A DNA stretch of 64,000 nucleotides from Synechococcus sp. UW105 (lineage in GTDB: Bacteria > Cyanobacteriota > Cyanobacteriia > PCC-6307 > Cyanobiaceae), in assembly GCF_900473935.1 (NCBI RefSeq), contig NZ_UCNN01000030.1, positions 248,001 through 312,000 on the forward strand. The letters are read 5' to 3'. Every line of letters starts with the position of its first letter. Position 1 is the first letter of the stretch. Shown here in pieces: positions 5,519-45,712 of the stretch. A model generated the notes under the pieces. That model saw nothing but the letters and a program-made list of their open reading frames with translations, was not told the origin of the DNA and ran no database searches. The translations under genes and the position numbers were made by a program.

Positions 5519-6258
5519 GGCTCCGGTGGATCGTCGAAGAGCATTTCCTCGATGTAACGATCTGCCCACTCCACGCTGAAGGCCTTCTCCAGGACACGCC
5601 GGGTTTTGTCGTTGCGCTTCTGTTGGAGGCAATAGGAGAGCTGACCCTGATGACGATCGATCGTAGAAGGGGCGTCCGGGGCATCGGCGGCTGTGGTCTC
5701 AACGGCCTGACGCATCACCTCCAAAAAGTGCCCAACCTGCTCGAGGAACCAACCCTCCTCAACACTGTTCACAGGACGAATGAATCGCACAAAGGGAGAA
5801 AAAATCGTTCCCCAAGCCGGTAGCTCTCGCACCTGTTCAAAAGGTGGAAAAGTCAACGCCTCCAACGGTTGACGGATGCTGTCTGGGAGTGTGTCCCGCA
5901 CAGGTGAAAGGTCAACGATGGCCGCTGAGATCCCTGCGGGACTGGCAACGATGTCTGCTCCGAAAATGGGTAGGTCGTAACGGGGATCGGGAAAGAACAC
6001 GCAGTGGAGAATCTGCAGTCCTAAACCGAGCCGAGCCGTCTCTAAATGAAGCTTGCGCAGACCTCGACATTGATGCAGTTCATTGCTGATGGACAGCGAA
6101 TCACCATCCAAAGTGGCTGTGACCGCCTCAAGTTCTGGGTCGACGACGAGAGGCTGAAGGCCTGTCATGGCCCCCCTACATGTCCGGATGCGCTCGGCAA
6201 GGGCATCCACCAGAGGATGAAGCTCAAGGGATGTTGACGAGGAAGGAGGCGACGGCAC
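5515..6258 (-). CDS. pcyA: Phycocyanobilin:ferredoxin oxidoreductase
   Basis: Reduces biliverdin IXalpha by four electrons from ferredoxin to phycocyanobilin, the phycobilisome chromophore. The 247-aa protein carries the PcyA core [20 protein letters not shown] followed by AD. His85 and Asp102 are spaced like the catalytic His88/Asp105 pair of the Synechocystis enzyme. The frame opens with GTG; no ATG occurs before residue 31, so GTG is the best start. It heads the pcyA-devBCA gene string on the minus strand and is divergent from the M16 peptidase gene, with only 19 bp between starts. Confidence 0.95.
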
Positions 6259-6277: not shown

Positions 6278-7564
6278 ATGGGACTTTGCCACGGGATCCT
6301 GAGCCACCCATCCCACGGTCCAGAACTGACGCACCAAACGTTTGGAAACGGAAGTCGGTGCGTCTTCGCCCCCATGCCGGATGCGGGGCTGACTTGCCTT
6401 GATTTCTGGTGTCGTGCCGGCAGTGCCTTCGAACACAAGGGTGAGGAGGGTCTGGCCCATTTCCTTGAACACATGGTGTTCAAGGGAAGCCGGCAGCTTG
6501 GAGCTGGAGATTTCGATCGACGGATCGAAGCCCTTGGTGGCAGTAGCAATGCAGCCACAGGTTTCGATGACGTTCATTTCCATGTGCTCGTTCCACCAGA
6601 AGGTGCATGCGAAGCCTTGGAACTTCTGCTTGATCTCGTCCTCGAACCAGCGTTGCGCGCTGATGCCTATGGGATGGAACGCGACGTTGTCCTTGAGGAA
6701 ATTGCCCAATATCGCGATCAACCCGATGAACAGGTCGTCCAGCACTTGCTGGCCTCAAGTTGCGCGAACCATCCCTACGGACGTCCAATTCTTGGTTGGG
6801 AGGAGAGTCTGCTGGCCAGCTCACCGGACACGATGGCTGCCTTTCACCAACGTCGCTATCGAGGAACGAACTGCTGCCTGATGGTGGCGGGAGCAATCCC
6901 CAAGGGGCTGGAGCAAACCATCAGCGCCAGTCGCCTGGCCTCGCTTGCGACCCAATCAGAGGATCACCCAAACGGGATCGACCAGACACTGAGCTTCCAA
7001 CGTGGACGGGACACGATCCAGGTCGAGCGCTTGGAAGCAGCGAGGTTGCTGATGGCCTGGCCTGCCGCCGCCGCGGATCAACAACATCAGGTGATGGGGA
7101 TTGATCTGGCCACAACACTTCTGGCCGAAGGTCGACGCAGTCGTCTGGTGGAGCGCCTACGCGAAGAACTACAGATCGTGGAATCGATCGATATGGACCT
7201 GACCACACTCGAGCAGGGAAGTCTGGTGATGCTGGAAGCCTGCTGCCCTGCTGAGCACATCAAGGAAGTGGAAGCGGAGGTCGACCGCGTGCTTCAAGAG
7301 TGCGCATCCACACCCGTTCAGGCCGCTGAAATGGAGCGGGGTCGACAGCTGGTCGGGAACGGTCTTCGCTTCAGCTTGGAGGCTCCCGGTTCTGTGGCTG
7401 GCATCGCAGGACCACAGGCGCTTTGGCGAGAACCGCAGGATCCCTTGAGGCCACTGCAAGATCTGCAGAACTGGACTGCGGCTGGCTTGCAATCCGACGT
7501 TTTCGGACAGCTGCAGGCGTCCAAGGCCTTCACGTTGGTAGCCCTGCCAGAGGAGGAGGGCTGA
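6278..7564 (+). CDS. M16 family zinc peptidase, catalytic subunit
   Basis: Insulinase/processing-peptidase family metalloprotease, 428 aa. The inverted zinc motif HFLEH is at residues 61-65 (His61, Glu64 catalytic, His65). The downstream Glu-rich helix DVVLEEIAQYRDQPDEQ supplies the third zinc ligand. It is followed by a one-base TGATG overlap with a second M16 gene that lacks the zinc motif, the usual catalytic plus non-catalytic arrangement of bacterial M16B heterodimers. Substrate unknown; degradation of small peptides is known for the family. Confidence 0.92.
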   Translation: MGLCHGILSHPSHGPELTHQTFGNGSRCVFAPMPDAGLTCLDFWCRAGSAFEHKGEEGLAHFLEHMVFKGSRQLGAGDFDRRIEALGGSSNAATGFDDVHFHVLVPPEGACEALELLLDLVLEPALRADAYGMERDVVLEEIAQYRDQPDEQVVQHLLASSCANHPYGRPILGWEESLLASSPDTMAAFHQRRYRGTNCCLMVAGAIPKGLEQTISASRLASLATQSEDHPNGIDQTLSFQRGRDTIQVERLEAARLLMAWPAAAADQQHQVMGIDLATTLLAEGRRSRLVERLREELQIVESIDMDLTTLEQGSLVMLEACCPAEHIKEVEAEVDRVLQECASTPVQAAEMERGRQLVGNGLRFSLEAPGSVAGIAGPQALWREPQDPLRPLQDLQNWTAAGLQSDVFGQLQASKAFTLVALPEEEG

Positions 7565-37731: not shown

Positions 37732-38198
37732 TGAGCTTTGACCCCCGTAGCTTGGAACGATTACGGCAACTCGGTCGAGAGTTGCCACAGCCACTTGACG
37801 CACCACAGCAAAAGACTGCGCCAGATTCCAAATCAAACCCCAAACGGCATCGTGTCGAGACGGAAGACGATCCCGAACTGCTCTTTCATGAGCTAATGAA
37901 GGTCAGCAATGACGGAAACGTTCCTGAACATCTAATGGCACGGCTAAAAAAGGCCGAACAAAAGAAGGATGAAGAGCGTCGACGCAAGGATCGATCGTCA
38001 GCACAACACGGTAATGAAAGTGGTGGTCAAGATCCATCTCAAGCAATGGAAGAGCTCACGAAAGGCTCCAGAGGAGAGAACAAAAAGGGTAAAAATACAC
38101 GGCCCCGCCAGTTAACAGCGCCTCCAGGCAGCGAAGAGGAAAGCCTGTATGTGACGTTCGGACAACTCTTATTGGAAGACGACGAGGACGAGTCTTGA
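37731..38198 (+). CDS. 155-aa charged hypothetical protein
   Basis: Starts [20 protein letters not shown], is rich in Lys/Glu/Arg/Asp and largely disordered, with a helical middle ([20 protein letters not shown]) and an acidic end ([12 protein letters not shown]). No domain recognised. Overlaps its neighbours at both ends (TGATG and TTGA), so it sits in a coupled operon with rlmH. Confidence 0.8.
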
Positions 38199-38629
38199 AC
38201 CCAAGCCGATGCCGAATCCTGGCCGTGGGGAAGGTTCGCAAGGCATGGGTTCAGGAGGGGATCTCGATCTACCTCAAACGGCTTCCGGGCCTGACTGTGA
38301 CCGAACTACGGGACAGCACCCCAGAGAAGGAGGCTGAGTGCATACGCCAAGCCCTGAAACCCGATGAGACCACAGTGATGCTGGCGGAAGAAGGAGATAG
38401 GTTTGATTCTGTGAATTTCGCCGCACAACTTGAGCGGTACGGATCGGAACGACTTGCCTTTGTGATTGGTGGTGCGGATGGGCTCACACAACAGCTCAAG
38501 CAGTCGGCCACATGGAGGCTGTCCTTATCACCCATGACTTTTCCACACGACCTGGCCCGATTGCTCTTACTGGAACAGCTGTTCAGAGCCAAAGCAATCC
38601 AATCAGGAAGCCCCTATCACCGCGGATAA
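38195..38629 (+). CDS. rlmH: 23S rRNA pseudouridine-1915 N3-methyltransferase
   Basis: SPOUT methyltransferase, 144 aa, acting on 70S ribosomes. Family motifs are [12 protein letters not shown] at the N-terminus, [10 protein letters not shown], the SAM knot VIGGADGL and the C-terminal [20 protein letters not shown]. The start is TTG overlapping the upstream stop (TTGA). Intact to the conserved HRG terminus. Confidence 0.95.
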
Positions 38630-38995
38630 AGGCAACAGACAGGGCCAGCAGGAGCATCAAAATACTCTCCTAGCGACACGTTAGATCCATACTTAATTCA
38701 AAAGCAAGAAGAAGAAGATAATGATGAGCAAAGACAAGCAACAATAGTATTCAAACCAATCGGAAGATGGCAAGCAAGTAGAAGAGCGAACAAATCGACT
38801 ATCAAGCGAAACAGGAGAACATCATGCTCGAGTCTCTCTAACAACATTGCTGATCAGGTGTAGGCCAACAGGGCCCAAAGGAGAGAAACAATCCGATCAG
38901 AAGCATTGGTGACAACAAGAATGAGCCACTGATCACCACAGGCCGACTCATTGCGGAGCGAAACGCATCATTGACCGAAGAAAGTAGAGGTGACT
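38630..38995. other. A-rich, gene-free stretch
   Basis: The plus strand is strongly enriched in A and in AAG/GAA-like runs and poor in T. No frame looks coding in either strand. It forms the left part of a gene-poor block running to about 41 kb. Confidence 0.5.
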
Positions 38996-39113
38996 CAAGG
39001 GAGGTCGTCCCTTTGGGTTGATCCGGGACTGAGGGGTGATGGCTTCCCCTCAGGCTCCTCGGGTGGACGGTTGTTGGGCTGGTGGGGGCTTGGAAATTTC
39101 CACCAGCACAACC
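38996..39113 (+). ncRNA. Candidate structured RNA, copy 1 (three hairpins)
   Basis: Hairpin 1: CAAGGGA (38996-39002), loop GGTCG, TCCCTTTG (39008-39015). Linker contains TTGAT (39018-39022). Hairpin 2: an outer stem CCGGGA (39023-39028)/TCCTCGG (39056-39062), and a perfect 8-bp inner stem CTGAGGGG (39029-39036)/CCCCTCAG (39046-39053) closing the 9-base loop TGATGGCTT. Hairpin 3: GGTTGT and CTGGTGG pair with CCACCAG and ACAACC (39069-39113). The loop and linker sequences recur at 40.1 kb with compensatory stem changes. A G-T pair in the outer stem, at the same place in both copies, would be G-U only on the plus strand. Family not identified. Confidence 0.65.
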
Positions 39114-40080
39114 CAGAACCTGATGGCTGAATGGGTGAAACAGATCATGCCCAAGCTGCGTGGATCCAACAGAACATCAAAGAGCAGAAGCAGATGACGA
39201 CGACAACTTGCGTGACCAGGAAAGAATGCAGCGAACAATCCAGTCGAATCACTGCAGCAAGGAAAGCAGAGAAGAGCACGAGCAACTCTTCTCTACTCAC
39301 CAAGACAGGCTCAGAGATGCTCGCCCTGAACCCGAATGATTGTTCATCGGATAAAGGGGTGATGAACACAAAATGATGCGACGGAGAGCAACCAAACAAC
39401 AGGCCACGATGTCAAAAATGCTGCGAGACAATGACTTGATGGTTGACGAGACAAAAAAGCAGCCAAGGCCACAAGAATGATCGATCCAATAGGGGGGTGA
39501 CGAGGTAAGCAGGAAATAACAAGTATGATGCCAGCCACCTTTACAATGGGAGGCGTGATCACAAGAACAAGACGCAATGAAAAGAATGAAACCTGACACA
39601 GTCTGTTCTGCTGAGATTTCAGTCGCTCCGATGAATGCGCAGATAACGAGAGCGAGAGAGAGGAACATTTAGGCTGCTGATGACGGGTAAGCAGAGAGAC
39701 GATTATGTTGGATTGGCGTAGAGCTTGCCTGCCAATCACAGTATTCTCTCGATGCATCGCCTGATCAGCGGCCAAGCACATGCTTAAAGAAAAAGAAAAG
39801 GATCAACAGTGGTCTAAACAGCTCGAGTGAGGTGAACTGATGACAGAGAGAGGATCAACGGCACACCAATTCAACAAACAAGCAAACAGATGAACTACAT
39901 TGCATCACCAACGCGGCGACGAACATCAGCGGCAATACAATCCGACAAATAAGGAGCAACGATGAAGCACCATTAGCACGAACGGGGAGCATCATTGATC
40001 ACAAACAAAATAAAAAAATAAGCAGAAGAAGAAGATCCTATCCTCCACCCAATGACTCCATCACCGATAAAGTCATCAAG
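39114..40080. other. A-rich, gene-free stretch between the two RNA-like elements
   Basis: Frames here (for example 39131-39376 plus, 39344-39781 minus) have unnatural composition and no recognisable motifs. The plus strand is rich in A and purines. Nothing like a decayed known gene could be recovered from either strand. Confidence 0.5.
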
Positions 40081-40190
40081 ACTCTGGGGTGGTCGACACC
40101 TTGATTCACCCGGGTCAGAGAGGTGATGGCTTCCTCTCTGCCACCTGGGATACAGTGATATCGCACAAAAAGGCCGGCAAACTTATCACT
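40081..40190 (+). ncRNA. Candidate structured RNA, copy 2
   Basis: Same plan as the element at 39.0 kb. Hairpin 1 has loop GGTCG (40091-40095) within GGTG...CACC pairing. Linker TTGAT is at 40101-40105. Hairpin 2 has a 7-bp outer stem CCCGGGT (40109-40115)/ACCTGGG (40143-40149) and an 8-bp inner stem CAGAGAGG (40116-40123)/CCTCTCTG (40133-40140) around the identical loop TGATGGCTT. A third stem AGTGATA (40154-40160)/TATCACT (40184-40190) follows. Inner-stem bases differ from copy 1 at two positions on each arm and remain paired. Confidence 0.65.
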
Positions 40191-40450: not shown

Positions 40451-40535
40451 GGATCAAATAAAACAAGCTTTGGTATGGAGCTGACATCAAGTTCCGACAG
40501 GGCAAGGCATCCTATTGAGAGACCCCATAAACACG

Positions 40536-44677: not shown

Positions 44678-45712
44678 TTAGCTAACTTTACTTTCCCCAA
44701 GGTTGTCGAGTGCTTGACCAACTTTTTTGAAGTCAAAGCCCATCCCACGTAGAGCATGCCAAAAATGGCCTTGAAGGAAGAAGAAGCCTAGGTAGAAATG
44801 GGTATTCGCCAACCATGCACGCGCAGTATGTGCATCCCCTGTTAGCTGAGCAGTATCAGAAAAATAGGGTGAAAAGGCAAACTGAAGTTTCAGAGGTTCC
44901 CCATACAGCTCAACCGGATAAATAGTTGTATTCTGTGCACACCAAATGGCAGTCACAAAACCCATCAGTGCTAGACCGGCCAATGAATAGGAAAGAATTG
45001 ACTCCCCATTGAAAATCAGAACCTTTTTAAATGGCCCAAAAGGAGAACTGATGATGTGCCATACACCACCGATGGTCAAAGCAAAGGCCAATACCGCATG
45101 GCCACCCATCACATCTTCAAGACTGGAAATTGAAAGGAAGTTGGTCTGATAACCCCAAACCATCCCCAAATCAATGTTTGGTTCAACAGTTCTTACTGCT
45201 CCCAGAGCAGCATCATAAATTCCATGATGCTTGGCCCATTCCACGAAGGCAATGGCACCTAAACCGAGAAAGATTAGGTGATGGCCAAGAATGAAGCTGA
45301 GTTTCTTCGGGTCGTCCCAGGCAAAGTCAAACTTCTTGGCTCGTCCCTCTGCTTCACCCAAGTCTTTGGGTGCGCGAAGCGTGTGCCATAGGCCTGCAGC
45401 TCCCAACACTGCAGATGAAACCAGGTGAAAGGCTGCAATCGCGATGTAGGGCTGTTGATCTAGCTGTGTTCCAACCCCGTCGTAGCCAAAACCTAATCCC
45501 GCCAGATGGGGCAGCAAAATGAGACCTTGCTCACCAAGAGCAATCGATGGGTCGTAGTGAGCTAGCTCAAACAGAGTAAATGCACCTGCCCAAAACATGA
45601 TGAGGCCGGCATGGGCAGCGTGTGCCGCAATAAATGACCCTGATCGTTTCGCTACACCAGAATTACCTGCCCACCAGTCGTATGTGACTGATGGATTCCC
45701 ATAGGACTGCAT
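44678..45712 (-). CDS. isiA: Iron-stress-induced chlorophyll-binding protein (CP43'-like)
   Basis: Six-helix chlorophyll a antenna protein of the CP43/Pcb family, 344 aa, lacking the large lumenal loop of CP43 as in IsiA. It starts MQSYGNPSVTYDWWAGNSGV. Chlorophyll-ligand His residues occur in helices such as AAHAAHAGLIMFWAGA, AIAAFHLVSSAVLGAAG, FILGHHLIFLGLGAIAF and FLQGHFWHALRGMGFD. IsiA rings surround photosystem I under iron limitation. It could also be called Pcb; the isiB neighbour favours IsiA. Confidence 0.92.
   Translation of the reverse strand: MQSYGNPSVTYDWWAGNSGVAKRSGSFIAAHAAHAGLIMFWAGAFTLFELAHYDPSIALGEQGLILLPHLAGLGFGYDGVGTQLDQQPYIAIAAFHLVSSAVLGAAGLWHTLRAPKDLGEAEGRAKKFDFAWDDPKKLSFILGHHLIFLGLGAIAFVEWAKHHGIYDAALGAVRTVEPNIDLGMVWGYQTNFLSISSLEDVMGGHAVLAFALTIGGVWHIISSPFGPFKKVLIFNGESILSYSLAGLALMGFVTAIWCAQNTTIYPVELYGEPLKLQFAFSPYFSDTAQLTGDAHTARAWLANTHFYLGFFFLQGHFWHALRGMGFDFKKVGQALDNLGESKVS

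Follow-up and report, generated by a model that had tools for sequence, protein, structure and literature searches.

Yfr103 is a non-coding RNA of marine Synechococcus. Seven paralogs of 290-328 nt were described in CC9605, which together accounted for 55.2% of the mdRNA-Seq reads of this strain (PMC5069720). According to the same description, homologs exist in many marine Synechococcus, including CC9311, and in Prochlorococcus; a conserved secondary structure was predicted, and the RNA responded when light and temperature fluctuated (PMC5069720). Short palindromic DNA elements of the REP type are a second kind of described system to which structured spacer sequences can be compared. The motif GTAG is the tag of one REP super-family, and REP tags are described as unpaired (PMC3733652).

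Here, we analyzed a 64,000-nucleotide stretch of the genome of Synechococcus sp. UW105, referred to as the window. It is located on contig C2 of a genome of 2.66 Mb in 31 contigs. A spacer of the window harbors two copies, named E1 and E2, of an element consisting of several hairpins.

Results

Two copies of a multi-hairpin element in one spacer

The two blocks are flanked by a SPOUT methyltransferase gene (38195-38629) on one side and, on the other, by a 62-codon ORF at 40515 without Pfam match, which is followed by a flavodoxin gene. A sequence-only reading of this DNA had proposed here two copies of an RNA with covarying stems. Both blocks were found where it had placed them, and the inner stems and the nine-base loop proved exact (Table 1). 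As claimed, two inner-stem positions are changed on both sides between the copies with pairing kept; a third change of this type is present in the outer stem (A-U versus U-A). Further details of that description needed correction. The G-T pair said to be shared by the outer stems exists in all four sequences (both copies in each of two strains), but that of copy 1 adjoins a C-C mismatch, and in the minimum-energy fold of this copy the T of the pair is bulged. Hairpin 1 is present in both copies, but the GGTCG loop attributed to both belongs to copy 1 alone, copy 2 having GTCGA in a shifted register. Likewise, the TTGAT linker occurs twice but overlaps the 3' arm of hairpin 1 in copy 2. The block had been called gene-free; several ORFs of 61-145 codons are in fact listed between 38630 and 40514, but scanning of seven ORFs of the block and of the ORF starting in the loop revealed no Pfam match close to a curated cut-off. 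Three features had been overlooked: a third hairpin, a box on the 5' side, and E3, a degenerate copy on the minus strand which is located between E1 and E2.

Table 1. Positions of the element parts in the window.
Feature	Position	Strand	Basis
E1 5' box (copy 1), GAAAGTAGAGGT	38980-38991	+	
E1 hairpin H1, GACTC...GGGTT	38992-39019	+	
E1 two-part hairpin H2: outer stem CCGG/TCGG, inner stem CTGAGGGG/CCCCTCAG (39029-39053), loop TGATGGCTT (39037-39045)	39023-39063	+	
E1 hairpin H3, GTTGGGCTGGTG...CACCAGCACAAC; sequence kept across the family, one internal position mostly mismatched	39073-39112	+	
E3, putative degenerate copy: H2 and flanks, GGTGAGTAGAGAAGAG...CTCTTCTCTGCTTTCC	39261-39301	-	likeness to C3a
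E2 5' box (copy 2), GATAAAGTCATCAA	40066-40079	+	
E2 hairpin H1, GACTC...GATTC	40080-40107	+	
E2 two-part hairpin H2: inner stem CAGAGAGG/CCTCTCTG (40116-40140), loop TGATGGCTT (40124-40132)	40109-40149	+	

E2 was 75% identical to E1 in a whole-genome search (E 9.1e-6) and is not followed by the conserved H3. Among 31 genomes of the genus, the E1 block gave a blastn match in two, those of the window strain and of Synechococcus sp. UW140 (G029). Between these strains, a 100-column stretch containing E1 is 95% identical and its neighbor stretches 84-89%; in E2, the strains deviate from each other in 2 of the first 68 columns. The other ungapped spacer stretches reach 56-88%, with values down to 56-58% in the E1-E2 spacer, and two stretches contain long gaps. 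Conservation is thus local. Promoter-like or terminator-like sites above chance were not detected in the window block. Phage sequences contained no match for the window spacer.

Further copies in the genus

A covariance model (R2) was built from E1 and E2 of both strains, i.e., four sequences. In 299 genomes of the order nothing else better than E 0.02 was obtained; together with the blastn result, this evidence alone would describe a two-strain curiosity. R2 matches at E up to 1 occurred in 18 other genomes, and among the six inspected (L082-L086, L098) the plan was present only in G001; a further match in UW140 (L104) did not show it.

Hairpin H3 recurs on contig C3 of the window genome, in UW140 and in other members of the genus. 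An alignment of nine H3 sequences (eight distinct) revealed 11 invariant pairs out of 12 and one compensated pair (A-U in six, G-C in two). The H3 model R3 gave matches at E 1e-6 or better in 10 of the 31 genomes, at three places each in the window genome and UW140 and at one place in each of the others. In G001, the plan is present with a different third hairpin (R2 E 0.83 in the search of order genomes, 0.0039 within 12 kb). Hence, copies were verified in 11 of the 31 genomes, a count which leaves out R3 matches in G030 (E 6.1e-5) and G026 (0.0028), where the alignment pattern did not fit. Among 399 genomes of the order, R3 gave matches with E-values of up to 0.01 in seven outside the genus, none of them below 1.8e-4, under stricter filters that could miss divergent copies; in the two inspected (G179, G142) the loop sequence is missing. 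Further copies were thus found in the genus and no Rfam family matched (see below), two of the outcomes on which the sequence-only reading had made its proposal depend.

The family plan consists of a box GAAAGT-N6-GACTC, H1 closed by GACTC with GAGTT or a near variant, a GATCCGG linker, the two-part H2, CGGG and H3. It is complete in its letters in E1, C3a and C3c (two strains each) and in G005, so that the order box-H1-linker-H2-H3 is linked at several places. Variants are E2 (no H3) and C3b and G001 (linkers altered). The box may read GAGAGT (C3a) or GACAGT, and its columns G, A, AGT and CTC are invariant in 12 sequences, the doxX copies described below not being among them. In G005, two extra strong hairpins are present between H2 and H3 (L317, about 7150-7420), indicating that the plan tolerates insertions. 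Places with copies are the window spacer (E1 on the plus strand, E3 minus, E2 plus), the C3 block (C3a plus, C3c minus, C3b minus), G005, the doxX loci and G001; the last may be an orthologue of the C3 place, being near a similar small ORF and an hli gene.

On contig C3 of the window genome, a 14-base exact match to the E1 loop region, GAGGGGTGATGGCT, was seen at L108 229-242 (minus strand). It continues with CT/C and eight T, and UW140 (L158) likewise has TGATGGCTC together with a run of T; this site looks like a terminator carrying the loop letters of E1/E2.

The grouping of the copies bears on the main functional alternative, namely that the element is REP- or MITE-like palindromic DNA which is mobilized as single-stranded DNA hairpins and has no function as RNA. 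Individual spacers hold several copies in opposite orientations, partial copies exist, some H2 stems start with GTAG (C3a, and within that of G005), and an unpaired GTAG is located in the E1 box four bases before H1. However, the GTAG of C3a and G005 is paired inside a stem and is absent there in E2 and C3c, and that of the E1 box reads GTAA or GTGA in C3a, C3c and G005; the unpaired terminal tag that characterizes GTAG REPs was not found. Furthermore, only about one to six copies were found per genome, and their stem letters differ widely, unlike those of fresh duplicates. We therefore regard mobile palindromic DNA as unlikely. Phages and plasmids contained no match for C3a, and in viral contigs neither the combined pattern nor the H3 pattern was found (0 each).

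Two other identities were rejected. The arms start with GTT and end with AAC, opposite to the polarity of the integron attC consensus used for comparison. H3 was also compared with the E. coli Chi sequence; it contains GCTGGTGG in E1 and in E1 of UW140 and GCTGGTGA in the other H3 rows. In viral contigs, a loose H1 pattern matched at least 120 stretches; among the matches listed, those able to form H1 with nine or more pairs showed no H2 plan by eye and were attributed to chance. An H1 pattern was found in 5 of 399 genomes; judging by their sequence, those in G345 and G018 were taken as chance matches.

Comparison with known RNAs

Rfam 15 contained no family that matched the elements at gathering score, and none appeared when the E-value limit was relaxed to 1 for the window block and to 0.5 for five loci. 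Rfam families matched nearby were IsrR, within the window, and Glutamine-II, next to the C3 block. The latter riboswitch precedes a 58-codon ORF beside the C3 copies (L108 2027-2086, minus strand; L110 962-1021, plus strand). IsrR (RF01419, 66.4 bits) is located at 45148-45319 on the plus strand of the window, antisense to an isiA/pcb-like gene (44678-45712, minus strand). IsrR of marine Synechococcus is already described, since IsrR-1b was reported as an antisense RNA to pcbD in CC9605 (PMC5069720).

The sequence-only reading had found no known RNA to match. As regards Rfam this holds, but the attribute 'undescribed' is not established, given the published non-coding RNAs of marine Synechococcus, including Yfr103. 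That the element belongs to such a published family, likeliest Yfr103, or to another marine Synechococcus sRNA is possible, though we doubt it; this question concerns identity and overlaps the reading as a standalone RNA. Here, too, several paralogs occur per genome (in the window genome E1, E2, C3a, C3b, C3c and the degenerate E3), and two of the places (C3, G001) are near an hli gene. The reported distribution of Yfr103 homologs over many strains and Prochlorococcus (PMC5069720) speaks against identity, as does the search of the genus, in which the window spacer had no blastn match in 29 genomes besides its own and that of UW140; the lack of R3 matches better than E 1.8e-4 outside the genus, under filters that could miss divergent copies, may point the same way. 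In 800 kb of G002, about a third of this genome, no recognizable copy was present. A search of the same 800 kb for non-coding repeats of 300 nt yielded only a tRNA-Ala pair, a 61-base pair of repeats in L349 and a repeat cluster in L345. The cluster (L345 10700-20000) consists of direct repeats of 60-186 bases, 84-98% alike, outside long ORFs and within 10 kb. A literature search, outside the scope of which most subscription papers on Synechococcus sRNAs lay, gave no other recognizable description of the element.

Covariation and pairing

The four sequences of E1 and E2 contain three doubly changed H2 pairs, and 94.2% of their cells are paired. After shuffling, 12 of 500 alignments paired as well and 168 of 500 reached the count of doubly changed pairs; two copies in two strains are therefore suggestive only. 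Moreover, one inner-stem pair is broken without compensation in E1 of UW140 (CTGAGGGG to CGGAGGGG), and one or more pairs are broken in the same manner in its C3b.

The model R2, in which C3a, C3b, C3c, G005 and the doxX places had no part, was run unfiltered over 97,707 bases from 8 loci. Its five best non-seed matches include C3a of both strains (E 0.04 and 0.096), G005 (0.53) and, in the window genome, C3b (0.84). Each of these directly precedes an H3 on the same strand; the remaining one (L321) is unrelated. At E up to 2, C3c, C3b of UW140 and four doxX loci were all missed.

An alignment of 12 sequences from seven places (A7), leaving out the doxX copies, was examined with RNAalifold. H1 and the two-part H2 were recovered although no structure had been supplied, and compensatory changes were found in 7 of 20 pairs. 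In A7, 89.5% of cells are paired, as compared to at most 68.3% in slid controls. None of 500 shuffles was as high in pairing or in covariation score and 3 of 500 in doubly changed cells, while the count of doubly changed pairs was reached by 51 of 500 and that of pair types by 233 of 500; these fractions are not probabilities, the A7 sequences being related, and the structure scored on A7 came from A7 itself. When arms were exchanged between places, inner H2 arms, fully paired with their own partners, fell to a mean of 63%, and none of 5000 re-matchings reached their own mean. For H1 arms, pairing was 96% with the original partner and 90% after the exchange, and 9 of 5000 re-matchings reached the former value. 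The arms were chosen by hand and H1 bulges omitted, which leans towards pairing. Structure-keeping changes are strong for H2 and weak for H1; since swapped H1 arms still pair to 90%, H1 is held mostly by conserved letters. Selection on structure, as claimed by the sequence-only reading, is supported by the further copies and by a common plan with different stem letters.

The loop could also be read differently, its ATG GCT TCC beginning with a start codon and the hairpin gating a small peptide. The ATG opens an ORF of 52 codons in E1 (41 in UW140) and one of 10 codons in E2 (10 in UW140). The E1 ORF, however, shows 3 synonymous versus 8 non-synonymous codon changes, and a peptide therefore does not explain the conservation. 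In the 31 genomes, the best peptide match beyond the two homologous places had an E-value of 0.088, a Pfam match was not obtained, and the ATG loop is missing from C3a, C3c, G005 and the doxX copies. The codon changes, the peptide search and Pfam all being against it, this reading was rejected as extremely improbable. A second frame across copy 2 (DTLxHPGQRGDGF) was also rejected; among the 31 genomes, the two homologous places alone gave strong matches, and the rest were at E 0.18 or worse.

Folding energy and strand

The 96-nt blocks showed only moderately unusual folding energy (z -1.73 and -1.87). For 16 instances of the element, z-values of the sense strand ranged from -2.18 to -6.81 (200 shuffles each), and the antisense strand folded less strongly in 14 of them, the exception being E1 of both strains. 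With C3c (two strains, small margin), E3 and G001 added, the sense strand was stronger in 17 of 20 folds, a bias which further argues against mobile palindromes; the antisense strand was stronger in three (E1 of both strains, G001). For H3 of C3c, R3 scored better on the opposite strand (E 0.0047 versus 0.20). As a reference, 61 overlapping non-element spacer segments had a mean z of -0.19 (sd 1.19; 60 shuffles each). On either strand, a z of -4 was reached in two of the 61, at E3 and at 39660, the latter overlapping a gap of 28 nt in UW140. At 39660-39780 (plus strand), in the spacer between E1 and E2, a strong hairpin with z -5.0 is present; it is not conserved, 28 bases being missing in UW140.

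Copies upstream of doxX

In seven genomes, H3 is located before doxX and follows two hairpins with TTGAT between them. The box and the GACTC and GATCCGG letters are missing, and these copies belong to the family by H3 and shape only. Of their 52 predicted pairs, one covaries. The genomes that have a close orthologue of doxX (E 5.5e-93 or better) are exactly these seven, and the element occupies the same place in all of them, a constancy which is also at odds with a mobile palindrome; remoter DoxX homologs in G015 and G001 had no R3 match alongside.

Pairwise identity upstream of doxX in the seven genomes was 0.46-0.71 at -525 to -226 and 0.60-0.79 from there to -126. Over the element it was 0.71-0.98, reaching 0.98 in the 25 bases with which H3 begins. 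Windows within the doxX coding region gave 0.78-0.95, and only H3 exceeded everything. Identity of 0.82-0.89, on par with H1 and H2, was also found in the spacer at -825 to -650 and -600 to -526. For the region from -825 to -526 (L318, about 5647-5946), no ORF of 75 codons or more is listed.

In G008, about 88 nt separate the end of H3 from the start codon of doxX, and the other six genomes look similar, as would be expected of a cis-acting leader that controls doxX and other downstream genes. Such a leader appears improbable, more so than mobile DNA: downstream neighbors differ between places and are constant only within the doxX group, and a conserved TTGATCAGGTGTAGAGT-like stretch between H3 and doxX may be the gene's own promoter. 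Depending on the place, the element neighbors doxX, a PAP2 phosphatase gene, a more distant hli gene, or no gene in the vicinity; E1 is located 1.4 kb before the 62-codon ORF at 40515, and C3b and C3c are downstream of an hli gene. Because neighbors differ in this way, a cis-acting role is less likely than a standalone RNA.

Between H3 and the TTGATCAGGTGTAGAGT-like stretch, an extra hairpin whose letters vary per genome was seen by eye (L318, about 6460-6600, and other doxX loci). A 13-base match, TGATCAGGTGTAG, also occurs in the window at 38851-38863, upstream of E1.

Discussion

The E1/E2 family is a real, structured, multi-copy element, probably acting as RNA. The reading we favor, with moderate confidence and on the strength of sequence comparison, is that E1, E2 and the related sequences represent copies of a single standalone structured non-coding RNA. 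Such an RNA would comprise at least about 130-150 nt, and its genes would stand alone in spacers of marine Synechococcus that are otherwise free of genes. It would presumably be transcribed and act in trans; the sense strand, which 17 of 20 folds favor, would fold successively into H1, the two-part H2 and H3. H3, which is constant in letters while H2 is constant mainly in shape, would for this reason be the recognized part, probably bound by a shared partner, which may be a protein or an RNA target. H1 and H2 would keep mainly their shape and could serve as scaffold or for stability or spacing; E2 and E3 may be partial or decaying copies. Among the observations that weigh against this reading are that 11 of the 12 H3 pairs never vary and that copies crowd in both orientations, as mobile palindromes often do.

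A more specific proposal is tentative, and we hold it with slightly greater doubt than membership in a published family. It describes a new RNA family, restricted to part of one marine Synechococcus genus, in which a constant recognition hairpin H3 is combined with exchangeable, shape-only H1 and H2. Paralogs of one cell, alike in H3 but strongly divergent in the letters of H1 and H2, would be adaptor-like RNAs with a common docking site.

If transcribed, the element would be a regulatory or structural RNA present in several copies in a phototroph of global importance. The family provides an explicit covariance model and a conserved hairpin that can be used as bait, and gene-free kilobases in compact genomes gain testable content. 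Should it prove to be a distant relative of Yfr103, the divergent copies would delimit more closely the parts that are important in this abundant, unexplained RNA.

Cyano-1, Cyano-2, PhotoRC, psbNH, glnA and Glutamine-II/Downstream-peptide, named in PMC2864571 and in the Rfam output, are also short structured RNAs of marine cyanobacteria; the elements match none of these Rfam families, either at gathering score or at relaxed E-value. With GTAG-type REP palindromes (PMC3733652) the element shares that it is short, extragenic and clustered and that some copies contain GTAG. It differs from them, as they are described there, by an ordered multi-hairpin plan, by few copies and by a GTAG that is paired or not conserved. 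Yfr103, in the description of PMC5069720, is similar in its multi-copy paralogs, its occurrence in marine Synechococcus and its predicted conserved structure; it is, however, a transcript of 290-328 nt found also in Prochlorococcus, whereas the element was verified in 11 of 31 genomes of the genus with nothing convincing outside among the genomes examined. The E1/E2 family could still be a distant branch of Yfr103, with which it was compared by description only. Unless this applies, it probably constitutes a new family within a known kind, the bacterial structured non-coding RNAs.
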